Shown: in pieces, positions 14,704 to 31,647 of the stretch
Layout of the letters: each line of letters opens with the position of its first letter
Position numbering within the stretch: position 1 is the first letter of the stretch
From: Actinopolyspora biskrensis
Lineage (GTDB): Bacteria > Actinomycetota > Actinomycetes > Mycobacteriales > Pseudonocardiaceae
Reading direction: 5' to 3'
DNA: 64,000 nt
NCBI RefSeq assembly: GCF_013408175.1
Contig: NZ_JACBYW010000001.1
Span: 1,178,001 to 1,242,000 of the forward strand
Made by a program: the position numbers and the translations under genes
Notes under the pieces: model-generated
The model's database searches: none
Told to the model about the DNA's origin: nothing
The model's input: the letters and a program-made list of their open reading frames with translations, nothing else

Positions 14704-15714
14704 TCAGTGTCGCGCCTCGCGGGCCAGGTGTTCGGCGACGCTTTTCCGGACGCACTCGGTGGTGTTCGCGAAGGACTCCGCGGTCCCGAACTCCGCGGAC
14801 AGGTCCCGGACCTCGATCCGTCCCCTCACCTCGGGGGCCGCCGTTCCCACGACGGCGAGCACGTCCACGCCGCGCCTTTCCGCCGCGAGGGTGACACCGC
14901 CGACCACTTTGCCCGTGAAGGACTCCGGGTCGAGCTTGCCCTCCCCGGTGACCACCAGGTCGGCGGAGTCCAGGGCGGTGCGCAGGCCGAGTTCGTCGGC
15001 GATGGTCCCGAAACCGGATACCGGACGGGCGCCCAGCGCGGCGAGACCTCCGGCCAGGCCGCCCGCCGCTCCGCCGCCGGGGAGGCCCGTCACGTCGACG
15101 CCGAATCGGTTCCGGTAGTGCGCGGCGAGTCGTTCCAGGCGCTCGGTCATCCGGTTCCGCTGGAGCGCGCTCGCTCCTTTCTGGGGCCCGAACACCTCGG
15201 CGGCCTCGGTGAACCCGGTGTCCACATCACAGCAGAGGAGCACTTCGGGGCGTCCCGCTCGTCCGTCTAGCGGAGCGAACCCTTCCAGCACCTCGACGGC
15301 GCCGAGCCCTCCGTCGGTGGTGGCGGAACCACCCAGGCCGACCAGGACCCGGGAGGCCCCGGACTCCAGTGCCGCGGCGATCAGTTCGCCCGTTCCCCGG
15401 GTGGTGGCCTCCTCAGGTGTGTTGTGCTCGGGGCCTCCGGCCAGAGCCAGGCCCGATGCGGTGGCCATCTCGACCACGGCACGGCCGTCCGCGGTCAACC
15501 GCCACCCCGCCTCCACGCTCTCGTGGAGCGGTCCGGTGACCGCGGTTCGGCGGTTCGGCCCGCCGAAAGCGTCCAGCGTGCCCTCTCCGCCGTCGGCCAT
15601 CGGCAGCTCGACGCACTCCGCGCCGTGCGCGCTCGCCGCGCTCGCGACCGCCGTGGCGACTTCACGGGCAGTCGCCGAGCCGCGGAACTTGTCCGGGGCG
15701 GCCAGTATTCGCAT
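14704..15714 (-). CDS. glxK: Glycerate 2-kinase (GarK/GlxK family)
   Basis: The 336-residue protein has the type-1 glycerate kinase features: N-terminal APDKFRGSATA (residues 6-16, substrate and lysine region), the MADGGEGTLDA loop (about 39-49), ATASGLALA, the glycine-rich VGLGGSATTDGG (about 125-136), and GEGKLDPESFTGKV near residue 255. It phosphorylates D-glycerate to 2-phosphoglycerate, feeding glycolysis. An AGGAGG site lies 6 bases before the ATG. It follows the TIM-barrel gene by 32 bases and probably forms an operon with it and with DUF993. This suggests that the pathway of that locus releases glycerate or tartronate semialdehyde-like C3 units, but that is inference. Confidence 0.88.
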   Translation of the reverse strand: MRILAAPDKFRGSATAREVATAVASAASAHGAECVELPMADGGEGTLDAFGGPNRRTAVTGPLHESVEAGWRLTADGRAVVEMATASGLALAGGPEHNTPEEATTRGTGELIAAALESGASRVLVGLGGSATTDGGLGAVEVLEGFAPLDGRAGRPEVLLCCDVDTGFTEAAEVFGPQKGASALQRNRMTERLERLAAHYRNRFGVDVTGLPGGGAAGGLAGGLAALGARPVSGFGTIADELGLRTALDSADLVVTGEGKLDPESFTGKVVGGVTLAAERRGVDVLAVVGTAAPEVRGRIEVRDLSAEFGTAESFANTTECVRKSVAEHLAREARH

Positions 15715-15746
15715 CCGTGCCTCCTGCGGGACCTGTCGGAGCCCGG

Positions 15747-16589
15747 TTACCGGGGACGTACCAGACGCCGGTACCTGTCGACGGTCGTTTCAACGACTTC
15801 GCGGGGCGGCCGGGACCACACTTCCTCGTTGAAGATCTCGACCTCCACGTCGCCCGAGTAGCCGGTCTGCCGGACAGCGGTGTCGATCGGGGCGAAGTCG
15901 ATGTGACCGTCGCCCATCATCCCCCGGCCCAGCAGGACGTCGGCGGGCAGCGGGGTCAGCCAGTCGCACACCTGGAAGGAGGCGATGCGCGAACCGGCCC
16001 GCTCGATCTGTTCGAACAGTCGTGGGTCCCACCAGACGTGGAAGGTGTCCACCACGACTCCGACCTGTTCCACGGGAAACGGTTCGGCCAGTTCGAGGGC
16101 CTGGTCGAGCGTGGACAGCACCGCGCGGTCGGCGCAGTACATGGGGTGCAGCGGTTCGAGGGCCAGTCGCACCCCGTGCCGCTCCGCGAGGGGAGCCAGT
16201 TCCGCGAGTACCTCGGCGACCCCCCTGCGTGCCGCCGCCAGGTCCTTCGACCCCGGGGGGAGGCCTCCCACGACCAGCACCAGGCACGGGGCCTCGAGCT
16301 CGGCCGCCTCCTCGAGGGCCCGCCGGTTCTCCGACAGCGACTCGCGTCTGCGCTCGGGCGAGTCGGCGGTGAAGAAACCGCCCCGGCACAGCGAGGAGAC
16401 CCGCAGCCCCGCCGATTTCACCAGTCGGGAGGCTTCGCCCACGCCGATTTCGTGGATCGACTCGCGCCAGAGGCCCACAGCGGGGACGCCCGCTGCCACG
16501 CACTCGTCGACGACTTCGGGCAGCGAGCTGTTGTTCAGCGTCTTCTGGTTGATCGAGAGATCGGCCGGTGTGGTGTCTTCGTCGGTCAA
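15747..16589 (-). CDS. Sugar phosphate isomerase/epimerase-like TIM-barrel protein
   Basis: The 280-residue product belongs to the xylose-isomerase-like TIM-barrel superfamily. Metal-binding positions are visible in LALEPLHP (Glu), VVDTFHVWWD (Asp and His), and VEVEIFNEE (terminal Glu). I place the start at the TTG at 16589, whose TTGA overlaps the stop of the DUF993 gene; the longer frame upstream is antisense-like. Members isomerise, epimerise, eliminate or hydrate sugars and keto-sugars. The tight coupling to DUF993 and glycerate kinase puts it in the same unknown sugar pathway. The specific reaction cannot be read from the sequence. Confidence 0.8.
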   Translation of the reverse strand: MTDEDTTPADLSINQKTLNNSSLPEVVDECVAAGVPAVGLWRESIHEIGVGEASRLVKSAGLRVSSLCRGGFFTADSPERRRESLSENRRALEEAAELEAPCLVLVVGGLPPGSKDLAAARRGVAEVLAELAPLAERHGVRLALEPLHPMYCADRAVLSTLDQALELAEPFPVEQVGVVVDTFHVWWDPRLFEQIERAGSRIASFQVCDWLTPLPADVLLGRGMMGDGHIDFAPIDTAVRQTGYSGDVEVEIFNEEVWSRPPREVVETTVDRYRRLVRPR

Positions 16590-17749
16590 CGAGGCACCCC
16601 CGCAACGTCGAGCAGTTCGCGCATTCGTGTCACGGCCAGCTCCGGGTCGGGGAACAGGCCGGCCAGGTCCGCGAGCCGGAAGGTCTCGGCGAGGTGGACG
16701 ATGCCGCGTCCGCTCTGCAGCCCACCGACCATGGTGAACCCGGGTTGGTGCCCGCTGAGCCACGCCAGGAAGGCGATTCCGGTCTTGTAGTAGTAGGTGG
16801 GGGCGGAGAACAGGTGCCTGGCCAGCGGAACCGTCGGGGCCAGCGCCTCGTCGAAGGTGATCTCGTCCCCGTTGTCCAGCGCGCGCAGCGCGGCGGACGC
16901 CGCGGGGGCGATCGCGGCGAACACCCCGAGCAGCGCGTCGCTGTGGCTCCCGTTCTCCCCCTTGATGAGTCGCGGGTAGTTGAAGTCGTCCCCGGTGTAG
17001 AGGCGCACTCCTTCGGGGAGCCGGGAACGCAGGTGGATCTCGTGCTCGAGGTCCAGCAGCGACACCTTCACTCCCTCGATCCGGTGGGAGTGCGCGTGCA
17101 GGATCTCCAGCAGCGTCTCGGTGGCCTCGGTGATGTCCGTCGATCCCCAGTAGCCTTCCAGCGCGGGGTCGAAGGCCGGCCCGAGCCAGTGCAGGATCGC
17201 CGGGTGCTGCACGTCTTCGAGCAGGCGGTTGTAGACCTCGTGGTAGTCGGCGGCGCCGCGCGCACCCGCGGCGAGTTGCCTGCTCGCCATCAGGATCACC
17301 CGCGCGCCCGCCCGTTGGGTGAACTCGAGCTGCTCCGCGTAGCCCGCGGTGATCTTCTCCGGGTCGGTGACGTCGGGGGGCAGGTGGTCGGTTCCGACAC
17401 CGGCGGCGATGCGTCCGCCGACCTCGTTCGCCTCGGCGGCGCTGCGGTTGATCAACTCGCGGGTGGCGGTCCAGTCCAGTCCCATGCCGCGTTGTGCGGT
17501 GTCCATGGCCTCGGCGACTCCGAGGCCGTGGCCCCAGAGATGCCTACGGAAGGCCATTGTGGACTCCCAGTCGACATCGGCGGGGGCTCCCGGCGCGTTG
17601 TCGCCGAGGGGATTGCCCACGACGTGGGCGGCCGCGTAGGCGACGCGGCTCCGGGGTGGGGCGGGCTCGACCGGCCGGGGGATCGGTTCGTTCAGCCGGT
17701 GGGTGACGAGCGAACCGTCCGCACCGGGCAGTTGGATGGTGTACGACAC
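16586..17749 (-). CDS. DUF993 family protein (dihydrodipicolinate-synthase-like TIM barrel)
   Basis: The 387-residue protein matches DUF993 along its length: N-terminal AAHVVGNP and DWESTMAFRRHLWGHGLGVAEAMDTA (within about 40-90), a central VILMASRQLAAGA strand-loop, an RLYTGDDFNYPRLIKGE segment, and C-terminal YYYKTGIAFLAWLSGHQPGF. The fold resembles class I aldolases and lyases of the DapA type; the Lys in YYKTG or LIKGE could be catalytic, but this is speculative. GTG at 17749 has GAGG 5 bases upstream. A LacI operator sits at 17770-17783, and the gene is divergent from a LacI regulator. Function is not established. Confidence 0.82.
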   Translation of the reverse strand: MSYTIQLPGADGSLVTHRLNEPIPRPVEPAPPRSRVAYAAAHVVGNPLGDNAPGAPADVDWESTMAFRRHLWGHGLGVAEAMDTAQRGMGLDWTATRELINRSAAEANEVGGRIAAGVGTDHLPPDVTDPEKITAGYAEQLEFTQRAGARVILMASRQLAAGARGAADYHEVYNRLLEDVQHPAILHWLGPAFDPALEGYWGSTDITEATETLLEILHAHSHRIEGVKVSLLDLEHEIHLRSRLPEGVRLYTGDDFNYPRLIKGENGSHSDALLGVFAAIAPAASAALRALDNGDEITFDEALAPTVPLARHLFSAPTYYYKTGIAFLAWLSGHQPGFTMVGGLQSGRGIVHLAETFRLADLAGLFPDPELAVTRMRELLDVAGVPR

Positions 17750-17769
17750 GGAAACCTCGAAAGAATTCG

Positions 17770-17783
17770 GAAAGCGTTTTCCG
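17770..17783. promoter_or_regulatory. LacI/CcpA-type operator before the DUF993 operon (GGAAAGCGTTTTCC)
   Basis: This imperfect 14-base palindrome (12 of 14 positions) starts 21 bases upstream of the DUF993 start codon, in the divergent region shared with the LacI gene at 17891. It resembles the perfect version at 28303-28316, which supports one regulon for both operons. Confidence 0.75.
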
Positions 17784-17890
17784 GAGCTTAGGTGGGAGGA
17801 CAGCGTGAACGCAAGAAAACAGCGGGAGCTTTCCCGGGAAGGCTTCTCCCGAGCAGGTAGTATCGGAGCACTTCGAGTTAGGGAGGACTG

Positions 17891-18922
17891 ATGCCGCGCG
17901 GTTCCGGCAAGGTGAATCTGGTCGACGTGGCGCGCCAGGCCGGTGTGTCGCTGGCGACCGCGTCGCGGGTTCTCAACGGAAGCACCCGCAGCGTCGGTAC
18001 CGACCTGCGGGAGCGCGTCCGTCAGGCCGCGGCCAGGTTGGACTACTCTCCTAGCGCGCCCGCGCAGGCCATGGCCCGCGGTGGAACGGATGTCGTGGGG
18101 CTGGTGGTTCCCGACATCGCCGATCCGTACTTCTCGACGATCGCCGCCAGCATCGTCCGCACCGCCGAGCCCCACGGCCTGATCATCAACCTCGCCAGCA
18201 CCGAGCGTCGTTTCGAGCGCGAGGCCGAGTACGTGGCCTCGCTGCGCCGGCAGCAGGCGCGCGGCATCGTCCTCGTCGGGAGCCGCACCACCAGCGACGA
18301 GGAGCTGGAGTCGTTGCGAGCGGAGATCGAGGCCTACACGGCCGCGGGAGGGCGGGCCGCCGCCATCGGACAGCACAAGCTGCCGGCCGACACGGTGGTG
18401 GTGGAGAACCGTGCCGGGGCGTGCGCGCTGGCCGAGAAGCTCGTGGAGCTGGGGTACCGCGAGTTCGCGGTCCTCGCCGGTCCCGCCGACCTGATCACGG
18501 CGCGGGACAGGCTGGCCGGCTTCCGGCAGGGGCTGCGCGAAAGGGGGATCGAGCTGCCCCGCCGGAACGTGATCAACGGTGCTTTCACCCGGGACGGTGG
18601 CCACGAGGCCGCCTGCGAGCTGCTCGACCGGGAAAGCGGTGCGGAGTGCGTGTTCGCGGTCAACGACGTCATGGCGGTGGGCGCCCTGTCCGCGTTCCGC
18701 GAGCGTGGAGTGCGGCTGCCCGAGGACCTGGCCGTGGCCGGTTTCGACGACATCGCCAGCCTGCGGGACGTGTGGCCCTCGTTGACGACGGTGCGCATTC
18801 CGCTGGAACGCCTCGGGGAGGAGGCGCTCGGCTTCCTGCTCGACGAGCCCGCGGACAGGGCGAGGGTGCGTCGTTTCCGGGGAGAGGTGGTCGTGCGGGC
18901 CAGCACCCCGGGGATCGGTTGA
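17891..18922 (+). CDS. LacI-family regulator of the DUF993 / ABC sugar locus
   Basis: The 343-residue protein has a LacI helix-turn-helix (residues 9-31, NLVDVARQAGVSLATASRVLN) and a sugar-binding core with DIADPYFSTIAASI, GAFTRDGG and AGFDDIASL segments. The recognition-helix start, SLATASRVLN, resembles CcpA (SMATVSRVVN), which binds AAAGCGCTTT. This agrees with the two AAAGCG(C/T)TTT sites at 17770 and 28303. GGGAGG lies 5 bases before the ATG. It is divergent from DUF993 and likely represses both that operon and the ABC transporter operon in the absence of an unknown sugar. Confidence 0.88.
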   Translation: MPRGSGKVNLVDVARQAGVSLATASRVLNGSTRSVGTDLRERVRQAAARLDYSPSAPAQAMARGGTDVVGLVVPDIADPYFSTIAASIVRTAEPHGLIINLASTERRFEREAEYVASLRRQQARGIVLVGSRTTSDEELESLRAEIEAYTAAGGRAAAIGQHKLPADTVVVENRAGACALAEKLVELGYREFAVLAGPADLITARDRLAGFRQGLRERGIELPRRNVINGAFTRDGGHEAACELLDRESGAECVFAVNDVMAVGALSAFRERGVRLPEDLAVAGFDDIASLRDVWPSLTTVRIPLERLGEEALGFLLDEPADRARVRRFRGEVVVRASTPGIG

Positions 18923-19106
18923 GGGAGGTCCGCGGACCGCTCGGCGCGCGAGGGCCCGCCGTGGAGCGGGGCCGCCGTCCGACGGTGCGTGGCGGTCTGC
19001 CCCCCAGTGCGGAACCCGGTGGGGGAGAGGCGGGATGCGGGGCCGGGGAGTCCGCCCGGAGTTTCTTCCGGTGCCCGGCCGAAGCCCCTCCCCGCCGTCG
19101 TCGGGA

Positions 19107-20201
19107 TCAGCTCGCCAGCCTTTCCCCGCTTCCGGCGTCGAACAGGTGGATCTCCTCGAGATCACGTACGGCCACGTTCACGGTCTCGCCCGGCGTGGGG
19201 GGAGTGCGTCCGTCCCCACGGATGATCAGCGGATCCCTGTTCGTGCTCGTGAGCGTCCGGCCGTGGATCAGGCAGTCGGCCCCCAGCTCCTCGACGAGTT
19301 CCACCTGCAGCGGCAGGCTGCCCTCCTCGGAGGAGACGAGGTGCAGCGACTCGGGGCGGATACCGATGGTGATCTCGGAGTCGTCGGACCGCCCGGAGGT
19401 CACCGCACGCGGGACCGGGATGGAGACCTCGTCCAGTTCCGCGCCCTCGGGGGTCAGCGGCACCGTTCTGAGGTTCATCGCGGGAGAGCCGATGAACCCG
19501 GCCACGAAGGCGTTGGCCGGGCGCTCGTAGAGCTCACGCGGGGTTTCGCACTGCTGCAGGACACCGTCGGCGAGGACGGCCACCCGGTGCCCCATGGTCA
19601 TGGCTTCCACCTGGTCGTGGGTGACGTAGATGGTCGTGGTCCCGAGACGACGTTGCAGCGAGGCGATGTTGGCCCGGGTCTCCACCCGCAGTTTGGCGTC
19701 CAGGTTGGACAGGGGTTCGTCCATGAGGAACACGGACGGTTCGCGGACGATGGCGCGTCCCATGGCCACGCGTTGACGCTGCCCCCCGGACAGCGCTTTC
19801 GGCTTGCGGTCGAGATAGCTGGTCAGGTCCAGCAGTTCGGCCGCCTCCTCCACCCGACGCCGCACCTCCTGCTTGTGAATGCGCCGCAGTTTCAGGGCGA
19901 AGCCCATGTTCTCGGCCACGGTCATGTGGGGGTATAACGCGTAGGACTGGAACACCATCGCGATGTCCCTGGATTTCGGTGGCATCGTGGTCACGTCCAC
20001 GTCGCCGATCTGCACGCCGCCCTCGTCGATCTCCTCCAGGCCGGCGAGCATGCGCAGCGCCGTCGATTTGCCCGATCCCGAAGGACCGACCAGAACCAGG
20101 AACTCCCCGTCGTCGACCGTCAGGTCCAAACCGTCGACCGCACGCACGGGCGGGGTTCCGCCGAACACCCGTGCGGCCTTGTTGTACGCGACCTGTGCCA
20201 T
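19107..20201 (-). CDS. Sugar ABC transporter ATP-binding protein (UgpC/MsmK type)
   Basis: The 364-residue ATPase has Walker A GPSGSGKST (39-47), a Q-loop in FQSYALYPHMTV, signature LSGGQ (137-141), Walker B FLMDEP (158-163) and the switch His in VTHDQ. The C-terminal OB-type regulatory domain (about 240-364) is typical of shared carbohydrate ATPases (MsiK/UgpC). It energises import through a permease pair such as the one at 22307-24147. The start is set at 20201 because of the strong GGAGGAGG site just upstream. It is 153 bases after the Gfo/Idh gene, so it may have its own promoter; it could also serve other importers. Confidence 0.92.
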   Translation of the reverse strand: MAQVAYNKAARVFGGTPPVRAVDGLDLTVDDGEFLVLVGPSGSGKSTALRMLAGLEEIDEGGVQIGDVDVTTMPPKSRDIAMVFQSYALYPHMTVAENMGFALKLRRIHKQEVRRRVEEAAELLDLTSYLDRKPKALSGGQRQRVAMGRAIVREPSVFLMDEPLSNLDAKLRVETRANIASLQRRLGTTTIYVTHDQVEAMTMGHRVAVLADGVLQQCETPRELYERPANAFVAGFIGSPAMNLRTVPLTPEGAELDEVSIPVPRAVTSGRSDDSEITIGIRPESLHLVSSEEGSLPLQVELVEELGADCLIHGRTLTSTNRDPLIIRGDGRTPPTPGETVNVAVRDLEEIHLFDAGSGERLAS

Positions 20202-20354
20202 CGGTCCTCCTCCTGAAGCTTTTCCGTTCGTTCGGTTGTTCGAGCTCGGGTGTCCTTCGGCGCTGCCCGCCTCGAAGGACACCCGGGCGGTCGGCGTCGC
20301 CGCGGGAGGGTCCGCCGAGCGACCACCTACGGCAACCGAGTCAACGAGTTCCTG

Positions 20355-21506
20355 TTAGCTGTCGAGACGGTCCAGAGGGATCCGCTGCCCGCTCTCGGAG
20401 GAGCGCAGTCCGGCTTCGGCGAGCTGGATTCCCCTGGCTCCGGCGAAGAAGTCGTAGCGGTGCTTCGCATCGCCGACCACGTCCCGCAGGAACTGCTCCC
20501 ACTGGGCCTTGAACCCGTTGTCGAACTCCTCGTTGTCCGGTACCTCGGACCACTGGTCGCGGAAGGGCTCGGTGGCGGGAAGATCCGGGTTCCACACCGG
20601 TTTCGGGGTCATGGTGCGGTGCTGCAACCTGCATCCGCGCAACCCGGCGACCGCGCTTCCCCCGGTGCCGTCGATCTGGAACTCGACCAGCTCGTCGCGG
20701 TTGACCCGCACCGCCCACGAGGAGTTGATCTGGGCTATCGCGCCGCCCTCGAGCTCGAAGATCCCGTAGGCCGCGTCATCGGCGGTGGCCTCGTAGGCGA
20801 GCCCCCGTTCGTCCCAGCGCCGGGGAACGTGCGTGGTGGCCTTGGCCGTGACCGACTCGACCCGTCCGAACAGGTTCTCCAGCACGTAGTGCCAGTGGCA
20901 GAACATGTCGGAGACGATTCCGCCGCCGTCCTCGGAACGGTAGTTCCAGCTGGGACGTTGCGCGGACTGCCAGTCCCCTTCGAAGACCCAGTACCCGAAT
21001 TCGCCGCGCACGGACAGCACTCGACCGAAGAATCCGCCTTCGAGCAGGCGGTGCAGTTTCAGCAGACCGGGCAGGAACAGCTTGTCGTGCACCACCCCGT
21101 GGCACACTCCGGCGTTCTCGGCCAGCCGGGCCAGTTCGAGTGCCTGCTCCGCGGTCTCAGAGACCGGCTTTTCCGAGTAGACGTGCTTGCCCGCCTCCAC
21201 GGCCGAACGAAGTGCTTTCTGCCTGGCAGAGGTTATCTGGGAGTCGAAGTACACGTCCACGGAATCGTCGGACAGCACGGTGTCCAGTTCCGTGCTCCAC
21301 TCGGGGACGTCGTGTTGCCGTGCGATTTCCGCGAGTTTTTCGGGCCTGCGGCCGATCAGCACGGGTTCCACGGTCACCCGTTCGCCGTCGGCGGTTTCGA
21401 TGCCGCCCTGATCCCGGATGGCCAGCACGGACCTGAGCAGGTGTTGGCGGTACCCCATTCGCCCCGTGACGCCGTTGAGCGCGATACGTACCGTTTTCGT
21501 CGTCAT
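20355..21506 (-). CDS. Gfo/Idh/MocA family NAD(P)-dependent oxidoreductase (first copy)
   Basis: The 383-residue protein has an N-terminal Rossmann domain with a variant glycine motif (GVTGRMGYR, residues 11-19), the family YSEKPVSET motif (near residue 110), and a C-terminal alpha/beta domain with the HDKLFLPGL and DMFCHWHYVLENL segments (His as likely acid/base). Such enzymes oxidise or reduce sugars and cyclitols. The ATG at 21506 has GAGG about 9 bases upstream. It reads with the ABC transporter genes, with 145 bases to the YesL-like gene. Together with the second Gfo/Idh gene it suggests an oxidation-reduction pair acting on an imported sugar. Confidence 0.88.
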   Translation of the reverse strand: MTTKTVRIALNGVTGRMGYRQHLLRSVLAIRDQGGIETADGERVTVEPVLIGRRPEKLAEIARQHDVPEWSTELDTVLSDDSVDVYFDSQITSARQKALRSAVEAGKHVYSEKPVSETAEQALELARLAENAGVCHGVVHDKLFLPGLLKLHRLLEGGFFGRVLSVRGEFGYWVFEGDWQSAQRPSWNYRSEDGGGIVSDMFCHWHYVLENLFGRVESVTAKATTHVPRRWDERGLAYEATADDAAYGIFELEGGAIAQINSSWAVRVNRDELVEFQIDGTGGSAVAGLRGCRLQHRTMTPKPVWNPDLPATEPFRDQWSEVPDNEEFDNGFKAQWEQFLRDVVGDAKHRYDFFAGARGIQLAEAGLRSSESGQRIPLDRLDS

Positions 21507-21651
21507 ATGAGCAGTGCCTCGATTTCTGCAGTGCTGTTTCTCGGTCAGCCGGGACCCGCCCGCCGAAGCGTGTTCGTGCGGAGGGGCGTCCGGTGTGCTT
21601 CTCGGTTTTTCCGCGTCCGGCCTTTCCCGGAGCGGGGAATCGTTGTTCGGC

Positions 21652-22296
21652 TCAACCGGTTTCGCGTGGTGAGGTCTCCGAGCCACGGCTAGGCCTGCGT
21701 TCCTCGACGGCCGTGGCGGCCAGGCTGAGCGGTCCCAGGATCAGCACTGCCAGGACGGGCAGCATCCACACGCACAGGGCGGACACGGCCAGGGCCCCGA
21801 GCAGCAGCACACTCCCGCCGGGATCGGTGGCGGTGGTCCGGGCGGCCGTTGTCAGCGCCGCGCGCCAGTCGTGCTCGGACTCGGGCAGTGCCACGGTGCG
21901 CAGCCCGACCGGTACCAGCGTCAACGCCACGAGGAAGAGGATCGCCGTGACGGTTCCCTGCCAGGGGAAACCGCTGCTCGTGCGCGTCAACAACAGGTCG
22001 AGCGCCAGCAGTGCTCCCGTGGCCAGCGCGAGCACCCCGGCGGTGAGGTCGGGGAGTGCGCGTTCGCCGCGCAGTCTCCGGAGGAATTGGCGCGCGTACC
22101 CGAGTCCCCCGGGGCCACGACCTCCTCGGGAGCGTGCCCGCAGTTGTGCACAGGCCGTCGAAACCGCGGCGGGGGCCGTCACCACGGGCAGCGACGCCAG
22201 CGTGGTGGCCACCCCGATGCCCAGCATGTCCGCGAACAGTTCGAAGCCGGGGCCGAACGGGCCGCGGTGCTGCTTCGGCTGTGATGTGGCGGTCAT
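21652..22296 (-). CDS. YesL-like (DUF624-type) membrane protein
   Basis: The 214-residue product has about five hydrophobic helices: about 20-48, 82-103, 113-132 and a pair in 160-200. It starts with a FELFADMLGIGVATTLASLP segment like that of DUF624/YesL proteins, which accompany sugar ABC importers, notably the Bacillus rhamnogalacturonan yes operon. The role of YesL is unknown, possibly an accessory to transport. It lies 10 bases downstream of the permease gene in the same direction, so it is almost certainly cotranscribed. The family match is by pattern only and is moderately certain. Confidence 0.6.
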   Translation of the reverse strand: MTATSQPKQHRGPFGPGFELFADMLGIGVATTLASLPVVTAPAAVSTACAQLRARSRGGRGPGGLGYARQFLRRLRGERALPDLTAGVLALATGALLALDLLLTRTSSGFPWQGTVTAILFLVALTLVPVGLRTVALPESEHDWRAALTTAARTTATDPGGSVLLLGALAVSALCVWMLPVLAVLILGPLSLAATAVEERRPSRGSETSPRETG

Positions 22297-22306
22297 CGAA
22301 AAGAAC

Positions 22307-23173
22307 TCACCCCTTCACACCGGAGCTGGCCATCCCCTGGACGAGGAATCGTTGGAAGGCCATGAAGAACAGCACGATGGGCAGCAGGGCGATCACCGAC
22401 ATGGCGAACATCGGACCGTAGGCCGACTGGCTGGAAGTGTCCACGAAGGAACGCAGTGCCAGGGTGATCGTGAACTTCTCCGGCTCGAACAGGTAGATCA
22501 GTTGCAGGAAGAAGTCGTTCCACGTCCAGATGAAGGTGAAGATGGCCGTGGTGATCAGCGCGGGCCTGCTCAGCGGAAGGATGATCCGGAAGAAGGTTCG
22601 GAAGGGACCGCAGCCGTCGAGCGTGGCGGCCTCGTCGAGCTCCTTGGGGATCCCGCGCATGAACTGGACGGTCAAGAAGACGAAGAACGCGTCGGTGGCG
22701 AGGAACTTCGGCAGGACCAGCGGCCAGAAGGTGTTCACCATCCCGAGCTGGTTGAACACGATGTACTGGGGGATCAGCACCGCGTGCTGCGGGAGCATGA
22801 TCGTGGCCAGCATCAGCGCGAACAACGGTCCCCGCAGCGTGAACCGGAGACGGGCGAACGCGTAGGCGGCGAGGGAACAGCTGAGCACGTTGCCCAGCAC
22901 GGCGCCGACGGAGATGATCAGGGAGTTCCCGATCAGCCTGAGGACGCTCACCCCGCCGACGCCCTCCAGCGCCGTGGCGTAGTTGCCCAGCTCGATCCTG
23001 CTCGGCAGCAGCCGCAGGCTCGATATCACCTCGTCGGCGGGTTTGAACGAGGTCGCGGCCAGCCATGCCAGCGGGTAGAGCATGACCAGCAGGACGGCCA
23101 GGCAGCCGACGTGCAGTCCGATGCGGCCCCAGTCGGGTCCGCGACCGGTGATGGATCCTCTGACGGCTACCAT
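22307..23173 (-). CDS. Carbohydrate ABC transporter permease (MalG/YesQ type)
   Basis: The 288-residue inner-membrane protein has six predicted helices and the EAA loop KELDEAATLDGCGPFRTFFRIILPLSRPA (around 185-215) that contacts the ATPase. It is the MalG-like half of the importer. The ATG at 23173 has AAGGGG 5 bases upstream; a GTG at 23179 overlapping the previous stop is an alternative. It follows the MalF-like permease with almost no gap. Confidence 0.92.
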   Translation of the reverse strand: MVAVRGSITGRGPDWGRIGLHVGCLAVLLVMLYPLAWLAATSFKPADEVISSLRLLPSRIELGNYATALEGVGGVSVLRLIGNSLIISVGAVLGNVLSCSLAAYAFARLRFTLRGPLFALMLATIMLPQHAVLIPQYIVFNQLGMVNTFWPLVLPKFLATDAFFVFLTVQFMRGIPKELDEAATLDGCGPFRTFFRIILPLSRPALITTAIFTFIWTWNDFFLQLIYLFEPEKFTITLALRSFVDTSSQSAYGPMFAMSVIALLPIVLFFMAFQRFLVQGMASSGVKG

Positions 23174-23175
23174 CG

Positions 23176-24147
23176 TCACCCCTTATCGTTGTAGAAGACC
23201 CAGGAGCGTGAACTGCGGAAGAGCAGCGCGGTCACGATGCCGATGACCACGAGCAGCACCCAGGCCATCGCCGAGGCGTATCCCATGTGTGATGCGGTGA
23301 ATCCCCGGTCGTACAGGTAGAGCGTGTAGAACAGCGTCGAGTCCGCGGGGCCGCCGCGTCCCCCGCTGACGGTGAAGGCCGGGGTGAAGACCTGGAAGGC
23401 CTGGATGGTCTGCAGCACCAGGTTGAAGAACAGCACCGGCGAGAGCATCGGCAGCGTCACCGAGCGGAACCGCCGCAACCGTCCCGCGCCGTCCACTTCG
23501 GCCGCTTCGTACAGCTCGCCCGGGATCTGCTGAAGGCCCGCGAGGAAGATGACCATCGGGGCGCCGAACTGCCAGATCGTCAGCAGGGCCACCACCAGCA
23601 GGGCCCACCCCGGCTGGTTCACCCAGCCGCCCATGTTCACCCCGAACGAGGACAGCAGGTCGTCCACGGTGCCGCCGTCGTTGAACAGGGCGCGCCAGAC
23701 CAGCGCGATGCTCATGCTCGCGCCGAGCAGCGAGGGGGCGTAGAAGGCCGAGCGGTAGAAACCCTTGCCGCGTCCGATGGAGTTCAGCGCCAGGGCCGCG
23801 GCCAACGCGGCCGCGAGCTGCAGCGGAACGGCCACCAGCACGTACACCAGGGTGTTCACCGCCGACCGCCAGTAGCGGGGGTCCTCGGTGAACATGTGCA
23901 CGTAGTTGTCCAGGCCCACCCACTCGGGAGCGGTGAACAGGTCGTACTCGGTGAACGACAGGTACAGCGAGACCAGCATCGGGGTCAGCGTCAGCACCGC
24001 GGCACCGAGCAGCCATGGTGAGAGGAACACCCAGGCGGCGCCCTCGCGCTTCCGTTTCCGCCGTGTGCCCTCCGCTTCGGCGGGTTCGGCCGGTTTCTCG
24101 GCCCTCGGCTTCTCGCTCAGCCTCTGGTCAGGAGCTTCGACGTTCAT
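23176..24147 (-). CDS. Carbohydrate ABC transporter permease (MalF/YesP type)
   Basis: The 323-residue protein has a charged Glu/Lys/Arg-rich cytoplasmic N-terminus of about 35 residues, six predicted membrane helices, and the EAA loop GELYEAAEVDGAGRLRRFRSVTLPMLSP (around 220-250). It is the MalF-like partner in a CUT1-class sugar importer. Its ATG overlaps the stop codon of the binding-protein gene (ATGA at 24144-24147), which indicates translational coupling. Confidence 0.92.
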   Translation of the reverse strand: MNVEAPDQRLSEKPRAEKPAEPAEAEGTRRKRKREGAAWVFLSPWLLGAAVLTLTPMLVSLYLSFTEYDLFTAPEWVGLDNYVHMFTEDPRYWRSAVNTLVYVLVAVPLQLAAALAAALALNSIGRGKGFYRSAFYAPSLLGASMSIALVWRALFNDGGTVDDLLSSFGVNMGGWVNQPGWALLVVALLTIWQFGAPMVIFLAGLQQIPGELYEAAEVDGAGRLRRFRSVTLPMLSPVLFFNLVLQTIQAFQVFTPAFTVSGGRGGPADSTLFYTLYLYDRGFTASHMGYASAMAWVLLVVIGIVTALLFRSSRSWVFYNDKG

Positions 24148-25454
24148 TGCTGCAACTCCGATCTCACGCTGGTGAGGAACTGCTCGGCCATCCGCCGCGG
24201 TGTTCGGAGTTCGAAGCCCACGTGGTCGTAGTCGCGTTGGAAGGTCGTCTGCAGTGCGAGATCACCCGAGGGGGGAGCACTCGGCGGGTCGAGCAGCTTG
24301 CCCTCGAGACGTTGCTGGAAGTCGGCGATCCGTTCGTCCAGACCGCTCAGGGAGGGCGTGATGTCCTCGCGGATGTCCTGGTTGACCGGCATCCCGCGAC
24401 TCACCCCGAGAACGTCGCCAGCCTCCGGATCGTTGATCAGGAAGTCGACGAGCTGCGAGGCTTCCTCCGGGTGGGCGCTGTTGGCGGAGACGCCGACGAG
24501 CATCGAGGGTTTGAAGTACTGCCCCGGTGTGCCGTCCGGACCGGAGGGCAGCGGGGCCAGCCGCAGGCTGTCACCGATCAGGGCCTGGAAACCGCCGACA
24601 GCGGAATCCCAGGTGATGCCCGATGCGGCGTTGCCGCGTCCGAAGGGCATGTTCGCCGCCGACCCGTCTATCTGCGTCGTCTGGCGTGCCGGGCTGACCG
24701 CGCCCCGCTGGCTGAGCCCGTTCGTGAAGCTCCAGAACTTCGCGAGATCGCTCTTGTCGAAGCCGAGTTCACCGCTGTCGGTGTAGAGGCTCTTGCCCCT
24801 GCCGCGCAGCCACACCTCGAACCAGTCCTCGCTCCACCCGGGATCGGTGGAGCCCGCTTGGCCCGTGTTCTCGTTCAGTTCGCGCATGGCCGCGCTCCAG
24901 TCCCGCCACGTCCAGTCGAGACGCGGCTCGGACACGCCGACCCGCTGCCACTCGGCGGAGTCGTAGACCAGCACCTGCGAGGTCCGGCCCATCGGGATCG
25001 CGTACTGCGTTCCACGGACCTGGCCGGTGCGCAGCATGCCCGAGCCCACCTTCCCGGTGCCGACCTCGGGGCGGTCCCCGAGCGGGAGCAGCAACCCGGA
25101 GGAGGCGTACTGGCTGATCTGCCGGTAGTCCAGCTGCATCACGTCGGGGGCGTTCCCACCGGCGGCCTGGGTGGCCAGCTTCTGGATGTAGGAGTTGTAA
25201 CTGGAGAACGAGGTCTGCACCTCGATGTTCGGATGGCGCTGTTCGAAGAGGTCGACGGCCTCGTTGGTGGCGGCCGCCCTGTCGGCGTTTCCCCACCAAC
25301 TGAACTGCAACTCGACCTCGCCGCCCGCGGATCCGTTCGTTCCTGCGCCGCAGCCGGCCAGCAGACCGCACAGCGTCAGGACCGCGAAGGTCAGCGCTGA
25401 GGCCTTGATCCCGGTGCGGGGCAGCGTCCGCTGCTTCGGGGACTTGTCCGGCAT
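24144..25454 (-). CDS. Extracellular sugar-binding lipoprotein of the ABC importer
   Basis: The 436-residue protein has a lipoprotein signal with lipobox LAGC (lipidated Cys at residue 35) and a family-1 solute-binding fold starting VELQFSWWGNADRAAATNEAVD. Aromatic residues (WW, YNSY, WTWRDWSAA) could stack against a sugar. It captures substrate outside the membrane for the two permeases. The ATG at 25454 overlaps the stop of the cupin gene (TGATG); a GTG one codon earlier is possible. Substrate is not predictable; operon context suggests an oxidised or unusual glycoside. Confidence 0.9.
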   Translation of the reverse strand: MPDKSPKQRTLPRTGIKASALTFAVLTLCGLLAGCGAGTNGSAGGEVELQFSWWGNADRAAATNEAVDLFEQRHPNIEVQTSFSSYNSYIQKLATQAAGGNAPDVMQLDYRQISQYASSGLLLPLGDRPEVGTGKVGSGMLRTGQVRGTQYAIPMGRTSQVLVYDSAEWQRVGVSEPRLDWTWRDWSAAMRELNENTGQAGSTDPGWSEDWFEVWLRGRGKSLYTDSGELGFDKSDLAKFWSFTNGLSQRGAVSPARQTTQIDGSAANMPFGRGNAASGITWDSAVGGFQALIGDSLRLAPLPSGPDGTPGQYFKPSMLVGVSANSAHPEEASQLVDFLINDPEAGDVLGVSRGMPVNQDIREDITPSLSGLDERIADFQQRLEGKLLDPPSAPPSGDLALQTTFQRDYDHVGFELRTPRRMAEQFLTSVRSELQQ

Positions 25455-26206
25455 CACTCGCCTCCGTAGGGAAGGGTCGTACCGGGGATCTCGTACTCGT
25501 CACGCAGGCCGCACACGCCGTACCCGTCCCGCCGTGACGGGTGGGCCAGACGGACCTCGGAGTTCTCCAGGTCGGCGGGATCGCCCTCGGCGAGTCGGTC
25601 CAGGCGGGCACCGGTGTGCTCGGCGGTGGCCAGCGCGCCGCGCCGCCACAGCTGCCGCCAGCGGTCCACTTCGGGACCCACCAGCCGGACGGCGGCCCGG
25701 TGGAACTCGCGCAGCGGTCCGGCATCGCCCGCGCGCAACGACTCGCGCAGCGCCAGGTACCCGGAGACGGCGAGGTCCCTGCGCCGGTGAGCGGCGGCTC
25801 GCGTCTCCTGCTCGTCCGCATCCCGTGGGATGCTCGCGGCAGCGGAGTAGGAGTCCGGGTCGGCGAGCACCTCGGGTGGGAAGGTGAACACCGCGTCGCC
25901 CGCCTCGGGCAGGCCGCTGTTCTGCATCAGCACCGTGACCCGCAGGTCCTCGTGCTGCACCATCCGGTGCACCGTGCCGGGAGCGAACCAGGCCACGGCA
26001 CCGGGCTCCAGTTCGTGCTCGCGGTATCCGTCCGTGCTCAACGTCTGCACCGCACCGCGGCCGTGGGTGACCACGTAGGCCTCGGTGCAGGCCAGATGCA
26101 TGTGCGGGCTACCGCCGCCGAGTCCGTCCTCGGCGGGCCATTCGTAGGAACGCACGTGTGAGAGCCCGATCGATCCCGGAAGGGGAATGTCGGGGGGTTC
26201 GGTCAT
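25454..26206 (-). CDS. Cupin-domain protein with a helical C-terminal region
   Basis: The 250-residue product has an N-terminal single cupin barrel (about 10-110) with a metal-binding style cluster HMHLACTEAY (His, His, Glu; about 36-45) and a later FAPGTVHR motif with a fourth His. The C-terminal half is Ala/Arg/Glu-rich and helical. Cupins of this kind may isomerise sugars, bind sugar ligands or act as dioxygenases. TAGGAG lies 6 bases before the ATG at 26206. It is tightly packed between the PmoA-like gene (8-base gap) and the binding-protein gene (overlap). No specific reaction can be assigned. Confidence 0.72.
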   Translation of the reverse strand: MTEPPDIPLPGSIGLSHVRSYEWPAEDGLGGGSPHMHLACTEAYVVTHGRGAVQTLSTDGYREHELEPGAVAWFAPGTVHRMVQHEDLRVTVLMQNSGLPEAGDAVFTFPPEVLADPDSYSAAASIPRDADEQETRAAAHRRRDLAVSGYLALRESLRAGDAGPLREFHRAAVRLVGPEVDRWRQLWRRGALATAEHTGARLDRLAEGDPADLENSEVRLAHPSRRDGYGVCGLRDEYEIPGTTLPYGGE

Positions 26207-26214
26207 GACGTCTC

Positions 26215-27132
26215 CTACCAGGGATGTTCGTCGAGAGTTCTGTCGATTCGCTCGTGGTTCAGAGCGCCGTCGGCGATCAGGATTCGGTAGGTGTACTCGA
26301 AGCTTTCCCCGCCGGGAAGCTCGAACTCCTCGAAAAAGGCCCAGGAAATCGCCACGGCCGGTGTGGGGTCCGAACGCACGAACCAGTGCGATTCGTGCAC
26401 GGACTCGGAGTTGCTCGGGCAGTGCTCGAACACGACCGTGGAATGCCCGTCGACCTCGTCGTGTTCGCCCGTGAAGGCCAACCAGCGGCCCTGCGTGCCC
26501 ATCATCGCGTCGGCCCCGGTGGTGCCGGGGCCGCGCACCGCGCCGCCCGTGAACTCCCGCGGGCCACGCCAGTGCAGTCCCGTGTAGCCGGCCATCTCGC
26601 GGCCCTCGGTCGTGGGGCTTCCGAAGCGCAGCGGCGCGTCGCACGTGTTGGTCAGCCGGATGGACCAGTCCAGCGCCCAGGTGCCGTTCGCGGGGTCGAC
26701 GGAGTGCGCGCGCAGCTCGCGACGTTCGAGGGCCCACGGGTCCCCGCCGTTGTTCAGCCAGCGCAGGTTCTCGACGAAACGCAGTTCGTCCGGGTGCGCC
26801 TCGAAGGCCTCGAAACCCTCGTGGCGCATGGAGCCGACCCGCTCGGGCAGTGCGAGATACCCCTCACCGCGCACGTAGGTGTTTCCGCCCCAGAAGTTCT
26901 GTCCGGAAACGTGGCTGGCGGTCATCTGCAGCCCCTTGTGCCAGCGGTGGTCGTTCGGCCGGTATCCGGTCACCGTGTTTCCGGCAAGGGTGCGCAGGGG
27001 GTGCACGTAGGGCTTCTGGGACTCGAACTCGCCCGGGTCCGGTTTGTACACGTAGGTCATGAGCTCGGTCCGGCCGGATTCGACGGTGATGCTCTCGCCG
27101 TGCCGGTGCGTCACCGTGATGGGGTGACTCAT
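26215..27132 (-). CDS. PmoA-like protein (DUF6807 family)
   Basis: The 305-residue protein matches PmoA/DUF6807 proteins: PYVHPLRTLAGNTVTGYRPNDHRWHKGLQ near residues 41-70, HVSGQNFWGGNTYV, and C-terminal FEEFELPGGESFEYTYRILIADG. The fold is galactose-mutarotase-like. Despite the historical name it is not a methane monooxygenase subunit. These proteins accompany Gfo/Idh oxidoreductases in sugar loci; a role in sugar mutarotation or a lyase/hydratase step is plausible but unproven. The ATG at 27132 overlaps the stop of the upstream Gfo/Idh gene (ATGA). Confidence 0.8.
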   Translation of the reverse strand: MSHPITVTHRHGESITVESGRTELMTYVYKPDPGEFESQKPYVHPLRTLAGNTVTGYRPNDHRWHKGLQMTASHVSGQNFWGGNTYVRGEGYLALPERVGSMRHEGFEAFEAHPDELRFVENLRWLNNGGDPWALERRELRAHSVDPANGTWALDWSIRLTNTCDAPLRFGSPTTEGREMAGYTGLHWRGPREFTGGAVRGPGTTGADAMMGTQGRWLAFTGEHDEVDGHSTVVFEHCPSNSESVHESHWFVRSDPTPAVAISWAFFEEFELPGGESFEYTYRILIADGALNHERIDRTLDEHPW

Positions 27133-28199
27133 GTGGTGCTCGCCTTTCCCCGCTGGATCAGTTTCTCCGGGCTCCCGCCGTGGATCACCGTGTAGTAGGG
27201 GTCGTCCGGGTCGATCTCCGTGGCGGAGACCGCGCGGCCGGTGGCCGCCGACTTGTAGAGCGCGGTGAGCAGTTCCAGGACGAGGCGTCCGTCCCGTCCG
27301 CTGCAGGGGGGGCGCTTTCCCGTCCGCATCGCCGTGACCAGTTCGCGCAGCATCCCGCGGTGGGAACTCGGCTCGTCGCGTTCGGGGGTGCGCCAGCGGG
27401 CGATCCGGGTCTCGTCGGTGACGTGCGGTGCCGGGGTGTAGTGCCAGTTCTCGTTGCCGTGCCCGTAGAGGTGGATCAGTTCGAGCGTGGCTTCCGAGCA
27501 GTCCAGGCGGATCCGGCTCGTCTCGTCCGGGGAGAGCACGCTGTTGACGATCGTGGCCAGTGTCCCGGAGGAGAACCGCACCAGCGCGGTGGAGACGTCC
27601 TCGGTGTCGATGTCGTGCCGCAGACGTCCGGTCATCGCCTGCACTTCCGTCCACGGCCCGAGCAGGTGCAGCAGCAGGTCGAGCTGGTGGATGCCGTGTC
27701 CCATCGCCGGGCCACCGCCCTCGGTTTCCCACTTGCCGCGCCAGGGCACGGAGAAGTACCGGGAGTCGCGGTACCAGGTGGTCTGGCAGTGCGCGACCAG
27801 CGGAGTGCCGAGTTCGCCGCTGGACAGCAGCGTGCCGGCGTGTTCGGTTCCCGAGCCGAAGCGCTGTTGGAAGACGAAGGAGGCGTACGGACCGTTCGTT
27901 CCTTCCGCGTCGACCATCTCGTCGTAGCCGGCCAGGGAGAGGCAGGGAGGCTTCTCGCACCACACCCAGGCGCCGGCCCGCAGTGCCTGTTTGACCTGTT
28001 CCACGTGGAGGGCAGGCGGGGTGCAGATGGACACGAGGTCCGGTTTTTCGGCGCTGAGCATCTCGTGCGGGTCGGTGTAGCCCCGCATCGTCCGGTTCTC
28101 CGCGCGGAAGGTCTCCAGTCGGGCGGGGTCGACGTCGACCGCGGCGACGAGGTCGATCTCGTCGTGCTCGGACAGTGCGGACAGGTGGTGTGTCGCCAC
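27129..28199 (-). CDS. Gfo/Idh/MocA family oxidoreductase (second copy), start codon problematic
   Basis: From the GTG at 28199 the product is 356 residues with the CEKP motif (WCEKPPCLS, near residue 80), a GHGIHQLDLLLHLLGPW segment with the likely catalytic His, and a C-terminal domain of normal length. However, the frame continues upstream as RFRAAVIGTGAVATHH, the missing first strand and nucleotide-binding GxGxxA motif. So translation should start about 18 codons earlier, near 28253, where an AGAGGAG ribosome site (28257-28263) precedes GTC-ACG but no ATG, GTG or TTG exists. It is the first gene of the ABC-transporter operon and has a LacI operator upstream. Confidence 0.85.
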   Translation of the reverse strand: MATHHLSALSEHDEIDLVAAVDVDPARLETFRAENRTMRGYTDPHEMLSAEKPDLVSICTPPALHVEQVKQALRAGAWVWCEKPPCLSLAGYDEMVDAEGTNGPYASFVFQQRFGSGTEHAGTLLSSGELGTPLVAHCQTTWYRDSRYFSVPWRGKWETEGGGPAMGHGIHQLDLLLHLLGPWTEVQAMTGRLRHDIDTEDVSTALVRFSSGTLATIVNSVLSPDETSRIRLDCSEATLELIHLYGHGNENWHYTPAPHVTDETRIARWRTPERDEPSSHRGMLRELVTAMRTGKRPPCSGRDGRLVLELLTALYKSAATGRAVSATEIDPDDPYYTVIHGGSPEKLIQRGKASTT

Positions 28200-28302
28200 G
28201 GCGCCGGTGCCGATGACGGCGGCGCGGAAGCGAGTGTTCGCGGGGGACGTGACTTTCTCCTCTCGTGGGCGTCGAGACGCCGCTCGCCTCGAACGAAAAG
28301 TT

Positions 28303-28316
28303 GGAAAGCGCTTTCT
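28303..28316. promoter_or_regulatory. LacI/CcpA-type operator before the ABC sugar operon (GGAAAGCGCTTTCT)
   Basis: Its inner 12 bases, 28304-28315, form a perfect palindrome with central GCGC, the classic CcpA/LacI-type site. It lies about 50 bases upstream of the probable start of the second Gfo/Idh gene, within the presumed promoter of the nine-gene leftward operon. It matches the element at 17770-17783. Confidence 0.8.
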
Positions 28317-31631: not shown

Positions 31632-31647
31632 AGAGGGAAGGAAGGAA

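Follow-up and report, generated by a model that had tools for sequence, protein, structure and literature searches.

Among the described systems closest to the locus studied here is that used by Bacillus subtilis on rhamnogalacturonan I (RG-I; YesOPQ, YesR, YesW/X). According to the available part of its account, the binding protein YesO has been crystallized with dGalUA-Rha-Gal, deletion of yesOPQ impairs RG-I use, and the cytosolic hydrolase YesR splits the unsaturated RG-I disaccharide (PMC7596534). Another is the actinomycete RhaR regulon with its RhiLFG importer, for which the part of the report available describes LacI-family control, a rhamnose-oligosaccharide ABC importer, and RhaEW (PMC3870299). 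Here, we analyzed a 64,000-nt stretch of Actinopolyspora biskrensis contig NZ_JACBYW010000001.1 (1,178,001–1,242,000; “the window,” to whose positions all coordinates below refer), in which two operons encode an importer, two Gfo/Idh dehydrogenases (GfoA and GfoB), members of the DUF6807 and DUF993 families, an AP_endonuc_2 TIM barrel (TIM), a cupin, and a glycerate kinase; GfoB, DUF993, and TIM are referred to as the triad. We assign a probability of roughly 55% to the reading that this locus is an RG-I utilization regulon, probably controlled by the LacI-family protein encoded at 17891, in which GfoA, DUF6807, and the cupin split the imported disaccharide in place of a GH105 hydrolase, and GfoB, DUF993, TIM, and the glycerate kinase form a second module.

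The locus shares with the B. subtilis system a secreted RG lyase, two permeases served by a binding protein of YesO type, a DUF624/MusI-like membrane protein of small size, a GDSL esterase, and rhamnose and Kdu routes. It differs in that the genome has no GH88/105 match, the genes form a LacI-type operator regulon, and the lyase is of PL26 rather than PL11 type; the GfoA–DUF6807–cupin and GfoB–DUF993–TIM–glycerate kinase sets are additions. For this comparison, we assume the wider gene make-up of the B. subtilis yes/yte region and the PL11 label of its lyases. LacI-family control, a rhamnose-oligosaccharide ABC importer, and RhaEW are likewise shared with the RhaR regulon, whereas the part of that account available (PMC3870299) makes no mention of DUF993, DUF6807, or an oxidative split.

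Evidence for pectin as the substrate

The gene adjoining the glycerate kinase encodes a 914-residue protein (11882–14626) with PcRGLX domains scoring 516.5, 425, and 100.8 bits. Its match in the PDB, 5xq3, is the exo-rhamnogalacturonan lyase of Penicillium chrysogenum, a member of family PL26 according to the title of a reference cited in the available part of PMC7596534. The window also harbors rhamnose catabolic genes, namely a RhaD-ADH fusion that scores above its family cut-off and a rhamnulokinase-like kinase that scores under it; no rhamnose isomerase was seen in the window, and no genome-wide search for one was made. The GDSL esterase encoded at 37335–38576 has as its nearest PDB entries proteins named SGNH hydrolases and is a possible rhamnogalacturonan acetylesterase.

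The nearest named PDB relative of the importer's binding protein is B. subtilis YesO (5z6b, 2.2e-43). Taking the dGalUA contacts from the published YesO table and placing their numbering on the alignment by counting, we find six of the 11 to be identical (W20, R25, D75, K284, S286, and M287), including the carboxylate-binding Arg, and five to differ (W52 to Tyr, N127 to Thr, N254 to Ser, Q255 to Ala, and Y252 in a gap). This pattern points to a uronate-bearing pectin fragment as the likely ligand, not necessarily that of YesO itself. Taken with the lyase, the rhamnose genes, and an operator before a pectate lyase gene (see below), the context directs us to pectin, specifically RG-I, where the original prediction, made from this stretch of DNA, had left an open-ended “sugar or glycoside.” We regard the RG-I substrate class as well supported and RG-I/pectin as very probably what the locus serves.

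Operator sites mark a narrow regulon

Two matching palindromes, which the original prediction had read as LacI/CcpA-type sites, are indeed present at 17769–17782 and 28303–28316. The pattern GGAAAGCGYTTTCY has three matches in the 4,949,786-base assembly, compared with none for a reversed-pattern control; these lie before operon 1, before operon 2, and on contig 8, the last 75 bp upstream of a gene for a secreted protein (L120:6801–7538) with a pectate lyase domain (PF03211, 256.9 bits). With up to one mismatch, GGAAAGCGCTTTCC is found at four places in 4.95 Mb, three of them inside the window, and with up to two mismatches at 37 places versus 10 in the control. The sites belong to a narrow regulon; as the motif hardly occurs outside the window, we reject CcpA-type global regulation. 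An operator site at C6:355903, 125 bp before a gene that we labeled iron-uptake-like by reading, without a family search, may be a chance occurrence.

The LacI-family protein encoded at 17891–18922 is the probable master regulator of this regulon, and 60 of 80 relatives' loci have a LacI homolog no more than 6 kb from DUF993 (these 80 are the best-scoring of 588 or more related loci, so that counts on them favor close relatives). Allowing two mismatches and 300 bp of upstream sequence, the operator precedes GfoB in 42 of 91 relatives, compared with 23 of the 754 remaining genes of these loci, a control set that includes some likely regulon members. Sorted by group, it is found in three of 42 Streptomyces-type loci, 20 of 30 other named loci, and all 19 from the set L099–L118, and the operator is thus changed or absent in Streptomyces.

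DUF6807 tracks rhamnogalacturonan lyases across genomes

The genomes compared were 246 drawn from the class, with that of A. biskrensis among them (three of the 246 fall under the quality line). PL26 (PF21345) was found in 26 of these, DUF6807 in 59, DUF993 in 81, PL11 in 37, and GH88/105 in 37, the last counted at E-values up to 1e-3 with several weak matches. All 26 PL26 genomes encode DUF6807, versus 59 of 246 overall (Fisher 4e-19); 24 encode DUF993 and nine GH88/105. Among the 44 genomes with PL26 or PL11, DUF6807 and DUF993 each occur in 38 and GH88/105 in 10; 34 have no GH88/105 match, and DUF6807 is present in 28 of those. Within one genus (g22), 21 DUF993-positive genomes divide according to the lyase, with DUF6807 in 13 of 13 that have PL26 and in one of eight that do not (p 7e-5); outside this one-genus test, the co-occurrence p-values ignore kinship. 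The link between DUF6807 and RG lyases is strong.

DUF993 is itself present in 57 of the 59 DUF6807 genomes, and in 17 of these 57, this genome among them, the two genes lie within 20 kb of each other (positions compared by eye; approximately 1.2 or fewer expected by chance). The original prediction had named a complete lack of co-occurrence in other genomes as the outcome that would speak against it and had proposed comparing DUF993 and PmoA-like gene neighborhoods. The genes do occur together, in 78 of the 80 loci and 57 of the 59 genomes, with linkage in 17 of 57.

Arrangement, as distinct from frequency, can be read from further loci, among them a set of 20 stretches, 16 of which were picked for closeness of DUF993 to DUF6807 and which may repeat species of the 80 loci; for L108 to L117, regulon genes are those in the part listed. 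Homologs of GfoA, DUF6807, and the cupin stand side by side in L107, L112, L113, L114, L132 (where the cupin call has 147 residues), and L137; in L134, the cupin is some kilobases from GfoA–DUF6807, and a PL11 gene lies 5 kb from GfoA–DUF6807 with an importer. Within 20 kb, L107 combines a PL11 lyase, GH42, operator sites, the triad, permeases, and GfoA–DUF6807–cupin, and L114 combines the triad, GfoA–DUF6807–cupin, GH42, a RhaD-type fusion, and a RhaA-like isomerase. A PL11 gene preceded by the operator adjoins the triad in L129; L124 holds PL26, GfoA, and DUF1961; and L126 holds GfoA–DUF6807, binding proteins, permeases, a DUF624-like protein, GH42, and a GDSL gene (GH42 was identified by Pfam in L107 and L114 and by BLAST in L125 and L126).

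A candidate substitute for the missing hydrolase

Beyond the rha genes, the genome encodes KduI (390.9 bits, cut-off 250), a KduD-like SDR (332.8 bits, just under the cut-off of 338.85), a KDG-kinase-like protein (210 bits, under the cut-off of 400), and two KDPG aldolases (Eda; 234.7 and 163.6 bits, cut-off 156), one of them beside the KDG-kinase-like gene. After cleavage of the bond, each half of the disaccharide would thus have a plausible downstream route, and the gap in the pathway is the cleavage itself. A search of the 15-contig assembly with the single GH88/105 profile PF07470 gave no match. We take YesR, which performs this step in B. subtilis, to be a GH105 enzyme, a label that fits a cited title. 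The textbook disaccharide-splitting enzyme was therefore not found, and the regulon otherwise looks like a variant of RG-I utilization.

In the pathway that we propose, the PL26-type lyase would free unsaturated galacturonyl-rhamnose (dGalA-Rha) and the YesO-like importer would bring the disaccharide in. The intracellular glycosidic bond would not be hydrolyzed by GH105; instead, GfoA would oxidize one of the sugar's hydroxyls, and DUF6807 and the metal-type cupin would aid bond breakage by the scheme of the C/O-glycoside and levoglucosan routes, which runs from oxidation through elimination and hydration to reduction. Rhamnose would then proceed via the neighboring rha genes, and the uronate part via the KduI, KduD-like, KDG-kinase-like, and KDPG aldolase proteins encoded elsewhere. 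Modeled on the levoglucosan and keto-glycoside routes, assignment of the missing split to GfoA, DUF6807, and the cupin is the most economical inference, and we put the chance that these three stand in for GH105 at a little under even. Candidate active-site residues are strictly retained: H35, H37, E42, and H80 of the cupin in 11 of 11 aligned sequences (this cupin included), EKP, H186, and H189 of GfoA in 12 of 12, and H44, D61, H62, H65, H104, E136, R138, R178, R189, and R253 of DUF6807 in 22 of 22.

The levoglucosan pathway (LgdA-LgdB1-LgdB2-LgdC) has two eliminase/hydratase genes of the TIM-barrel type. In the available part of its description, oxidation by a dehydrogenase is followed by elimination and hydration (PMC7676230), a logic that the present locus may share. 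That the locus is itself a levoglucosan, other anhydrosugar, or C-glycoside pathway of this four-enzyme kind would accord with its two Gfo/Idh proteins and one TIM barrel and with levoglucosan dehydrogenase matches of 61.2 (GfoB) and 40.2 (GfoA) bits. These scores are far below the family cut-off of 650 (LevoglcsnDh), and on them we reject the levoglucosan pathway. The scan of the locus genes furthermore shows a single AP_endonuc_2 gene, versus the two enzymes LgdB1 and LgdB2, the remaining partners are different, and DUF993, DUF6807, and the glycerate kinase would go unexplained, making any pathway of this kind very improbable. A reaction model for DUF6807 and the cupin, purely by analogy, is offered by the 3-keto-glycoside β-eliminases OGE and CGE, for which the accessible part of the report gives metal-dependent elimination after C3 oxidation (PMC10628242).

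Another explanation is that of an ordinary RG-I locus, in which an unrecognized hydrolase outside GH88/105 splits dGalA-Rha and the substrates of the Gfo/Idh, DUF6807, and cupin proteins are rare modified sugars or the arabinose or galactose of side chains. GH42, GH43, or GH51 is found near these genes in L107, L108, L112, L114, L126, and L133; the GH88/105 absence depends on one profile; and a Verrucomicrobia cosmid carries a PF14100 (DUF6807) gene in a putative operon with two β-galactosidases and an enolase-superfamily gene, in the part of that paper available (PMC5342196). We nonetheless hold this explanation to be unlikely, given that no glycosidase domain is present among the scanned window genes (2101–40819, with the protein at 3634–4809 falling into no family) and that DUF6807 tracks PL26 within one genus.

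If DUF6807 with a Gfo/Idh partner is a GH105 substitute, pectin use in soil actinobacteria would have to be annotated differently; DUF6807 and DUF993, for which a search of the open-licence literature gave no assigned role, also become testable with a substrate made from RG-I by a lyase. In that literature, DUF6807 is named once, as a number, and PF14100 appears in two papers, in the β-galactosidase operon or as PmoA; none of the titles and abstract openings listed describes such a system. Use of PF14100 as a PmoA profile is seen in the available part of a metatranscriptome study (PMC10291797), and occurrence of the family in sugar loci suggests that PmoA counts of that kind may be wrong. In L133:7375–15778, DUF6807 is accompanied by a second Gfo/Idh, GH43, permeases, a KdgD-like (31%) gene, and an IlvD/EDD dehydratase; here the same idea may be applied to a pentoside.

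A possible second module built on DUF993

In 78 of the 80 relatives' loci, DUF993 has both GfoB and TIM no more than 2.5 kb away. A glycerate kinase homolog is near DUF993 in six of the 80 and is annotated within 10 kb in eight of 17 plasmid neighborhoods, which were chosen from 147 records for annotation and diversity, are mostly proteobacterial, and vary widely in their transporters. The plasmid neighborhoods fall into a Gfo/Idh–DUF993 build (eight of 17, seven of these with TIM), an SDR–DUF993–TIM build with acyl-CoA-type genes (six, plus the related L089), and a GMC–Dabb–DUF993–LacI–glycerate kinase build (two). Such recurrence of the glycerate kinase would suit the version in the original prediction, in which an imported monosaccharide or glycoside with no tie to pectin would enter an undescribed route, with cleavage by DUF993 and a drain through glycerate. 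We consider that version improbable in view of the PcRGLX-type lyase, the YesO-like binding protein, the rha genes, and the operator before a pectate lyase gene. What stands of the single pathway predicted earlier is a regulon built around DUF993, two Gfo/Idh proteins, TIM, DUF6807, and the cupin; its linearity is doubtful, with GfoB–DUF993–TIM occurring far outside pectin users.

In L086, L088, L094, L096, L097, and L098, a set that includes Sinorhizobium meliloti pSymA, DUF993–TIM is found with SDR, CoA-transferase, and enoyl-CoA hydratase genes, and in most of these also with acyl-CoA dehydrogenase, ETF, GMC, and aldehyde dehydrogenase genes; this cluster is a different pathway with the same DUF993–TIM pair. 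From the same organism, SMc04132 and SMc04133 have negative values (-1.69 and -3.65) in a table of a PhaR study, in the part available (PMC12542648), and SMc04134 appears in the accessible part of a network paper (PMC11387232). An NMT1/THI5-type ABC importer, unusual for a plain sugar, accompanies the triad in 11 loci (L033, L047, L053, L058, L061, L066, L077, L079, L082, L117, and L118; labeled by Pfam on the L077 member and BLAST clustering).

DUF993 aligns with the DHDPS/NAL aldolase superfamily, with K228 opposite the DHDPS Schiff-base lysine (hhalign, E 4.3e-5, probability 69%) and invariant in 34 of 34 sequences. The pyruvate motif GTTGE is replaced by DTAQR, likewise invariant in 34 of 34 and placed opposite GTTGE solely in a permissive alignment, and the invariant H187 falls at the expected place of the catalytic tyrosine, in an uncertain region of the hhalign alignment. 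The DHDPS/NAL profile PF00701 was not matched by DUF993 in the Pfam scan of window proteins, PDB 4dnh is its single solved relative at E ≤ 1, and the open-licence literature yielded no paper on DUF993/PF06187. With the pyruvate motif missing, plain DHDPS membership was dropped; retention of K228 together with DTAQR in place of GTTGE suggests that DUF993 may form a Schiff base with a substrate that lacks a pyruvate end; as a Schiff-base TIM barrel, it would then be unusual in having lost the superfamily's pyruvate-binding motif. The TIM protein keeps Glu, Asp, Gln, and Glu at the IolI metal positions, the third being His in 7vpf and 3ju2. This comparison uses what we take to be the metal-ligand set of IolI.

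In the fourth step of the proposed pathway, GfoB, DUF993, TIM, and the glycerate kinase would act as a second, separately mobile module that oxidizes, isomerizes, and cleaves a keto-sugar or sugar acid, DUF993 cleaving by its Schiff-base lysine and one C3 piece ending as glycerate; as a whole, this step is tentative and we would not expect every part of it to hold. The retained K228 and the recurrence of glycerate kinase genes near DUF993 lend indirect support to DUF993 as a lyase and to a C3 fragment that passes into glycerate. A still bolder version joins both modules into one redox-assisted split of the RG-I disaccharide, used by many actinobacteria in place of GH105 hydrolysis: GfoA would oxidize the unsaturated uronyl ring, DUF6807 and the cupin would release rhamnose, and the oxidized C6 acid would be isomerized by TIM and cleaved by DUF993 as a Schiff-base aldolase without a pyruvate handle, its carbon leaving as glycerate. 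We view it as doubtful; if true, PF14100 and PF06187 would each gain a first function, and the few oxidative systems known to cleave glycosides would be joined by a new one. Two other roles lose ground to the genome's own genes: DUF993 as a KDG aldolase after KduI/KduD is weakened by the two KDPG aldolase genes, and replacement of KduI and KduD by TIM and GfoB is weakened by KduI and the KduD-like gene.

The genes next to the triad in relatives raise the alternative of two pathways under one regulator, in which the importer, GfoA, DUF6807, and the cupin would handle RG-I fragments, and GfoB, DUF993, TIM, and glycerate kinase another plant-wall sugar acid (a hexuronate or aldonate). A KdgD-type gene (PRK03620 420.8 bits, cut-off 278, for L103) and an enolase-superfamily dehydratase each accompany the triad in 12 loci, often in its operon, as an aldarate/uronate set would; an Epimerase-family SDR is near it in 10 loci and an aldehyde dehydrogenase in six, our labels UDH-like and KGSADH-like for these denoting, respectively, the Pfam Epimerase family alone and an aldehyde dehydrogenase with all equivalog scores under cut-off. 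L110 adds KDG kinase-like and KDPG aldolase-like genes, and judging by their families, these neighbors are sugar-acid enzymes. The triad also occurs without pectin genes and with many transporter types, TTT or TRAP transporters adjoining it in L090, L092, and L095. Against a division into two pathways, GfoB is inside the importer operon here while DUF993 and TIM are in the other, and L010, L055, and L058 have a cupin homolog upstream of the triad; the two modules are thus interlocked. We judge this alternative possible at rather long odds, which overlap with those of the reading of one RG-I regulon with two modules because steps 1 to 3 are common to both.

Observations that weigh against the RG-I regulon reading

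In addition to the kinship ignored by most of the p-values and the five altered YesO contacts, several observations weigh against the reading of an RG-I regulon with a GfoA–DUF6807–cupin split. N127 and N254, both changed here, are two of the four YesO residues termed highly conserved in the available part of PMC7596534, and the best PDB match of the binding protein, 4ovj (2.3e-64), has no named ligand or function. Six of the 44 RG-lyase genomes (G014, G062, G074, G123, G141, and G245, of genera g20 and g46) have a PL11 lyase with neither DUF6807 nor a GH88/105 match, and a third solution must therefore exist. Other DUF6807 copies lie beside GH43 and an IlvD/EDD dehydratase (L133), and the family is thus not RG-I-specific. 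PL26 as a neighbor of DUF993 is mostly not borne out in other genomes: among the 26 PL26 genomes, the two are close on one contig solely here and in G130 (35 kb), so that elsewhere the link is co-occurrence, not linkage. The operator is missing before GfoB in 39 of the 42 Streptomyces-type loci, and a search of the open-licence literature turned up no activity for DUF6807 or DUF993.

With KduI, the KduD-like SDR, and two KDPG aldolases present, the uronate half can do without the triad. What argues most strongly against one linear pathway is the wide spread of the triad, which is common without nearby RG-I genes in Streptomyces, Nocardia, Rhodococcus, and Proteobacteria, with NMT1-type, TTT, TRAP, or MFS transporters in the last. 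Such a distribution argues that some small, common intermediate is the product or substrate of the triad, which the RG-I regulon has only recruited.

Gene calls and further features of the window

Profile searches (Pfam/NCBIfam) recovered every gene named in the original prediction, the end points of which prove too narrow, leaving outside the PL26 lyase, the rhamnose genes, the secreted protein at 3634–4809, and the GDSL esterase (Table 1). Operon 1 (minus strand, 17749 to 14704) comprises DUF993, TIM, and the glycerate kinase; operon 2 (minus strand, 28253 to 19107) comprises GfoA, DUF6807, the cupin, the binding protein, two permeases, the MusI-like protein, GfoB, and the ABC ATPase. Each is inferred to be a single transcript from gene order and spacing. 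The GTG start of GfoA at 28253 is a manual choice, the gene caller's start being 28199. The MusI/DUF624-like protein is new to the gene list, and DUF624-like proteins (21–22 bits, cut-off 24.2) adjoin permeases in L112 and L126. Read by eye, the protein at 3634–4809 resembles a right-handed β-helix and is a possible pectin-active enzyme.

Table 1 Features of the proposed A. biskrensis RG-I locus and its surroundings, in window positions
Feature	Position	Strand	Evidence and remarks
Secreted protein	3634–4809	-	No Pfam or NCBIfam match; operator-like palindrome 164 bp upstream
Operator-like site GGTAAGCGCTTACC	4973–4986		Perfect palindrome, two mismatches to the operator palindrome
Rhamnulokinase-like FGGY kinase	5840–7342	-	TIGR02627 461.5 bits, under cut-off 527.95
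Rhamnulose-1-phosphate aldolase/short-chain dehydrogenase fusion (RhaD-ADH, RhaEW type)	7518–9566	-	TIGR02632 1031.9 bits, cut-off 567.75
Second LacI-family regulator	10077–11123	+	Pfam
Secreted rhamnogalacturonan lyase, PcRGLX (PL26, exo) type	11882–14626	+	Three PcRGLX domains; PDB 5xq3 1.2e-170
Glycerate kinase	14704–15714	-	PF02595 269.6 bits; TIGR00045 232.7, cut-off 168.45
AP_endonuc_2 TIM barrel (TIM)	15747–16589	-	140.6 bits; close relative of SMc04130 (PDB 3ju2); metal site retained
DUF993	16586–17749	-	PF06187 590.1 bits, cut-off 24; close relative of PDB 4dnh; K228
Operator GGAAAGCGTTTTCC	17769–17782		Between operon 1 and LacI; 20 bp upstream of DUF993 start
LacI-family regulator	17891–18922	+	Pfam; divergent from operon 1
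ABC importer ATPase, UgpC/MalK type	19107–20201	-	NF008653 453.1 bits, cut-off 432
Gfo/Idh B (GfoB)	20355–21506	-	Close relative of PDB 3oqb, 9.3e-148
Small MusI-like membrane protein of importer	21652–22296	-	NF052431 47.5 bits, below cut-off 160
Importer permease B	22307–23179	-	Profile search
Importer permease A	23176–24147	-	Profile search
Sugar-binding protein, YesO relative	24144–25454	-	PDB 5z6b 2.2e-43
Cupin	25454–26206	-	Cupin_2 24.2 bits, under cut-off 27.2; H35, H37, E42, H80
DUF6807 (“PmoA-like”)	26215–27132	-	PF14100 267 bits, cut-off 27
Gfo/Idh A (GfoA)	27129–28253	-	Weakly IolG-like, 100 bits versus cut-off 355
Operator GGAAAGCGCTTTCT	28303–28316		Operon 2; 50 bp upstream of GfoA start
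Operator GGAATGCGCTTTCC	37155–37168		167 bp upstream of GDSL esterase
Secreted GDSL/SGNH esterase, candidate regulon member	37335–38576	+	PF13472; PDB 9kr0 1.7e-67, 7tog 2.2e-65

Elsewhere in the window, an Orn/Lys/Arg decarboxylase-like gene (~28560–29986, plus strand) has its main and C-terminal domains in two different reading frames, reflecting either a broken gene or a sequence error. A 97-base tRNA-Val called by ARAGORN at 44658–44754 (minus strand) lies inside a 386-aa open reading frame and is probably a false positive. Finally, a GntR regulator with CCG and LUD-domain genes occupies 30785–34558, a cluster that we take to be of the lactate-utilization (Lut) type.

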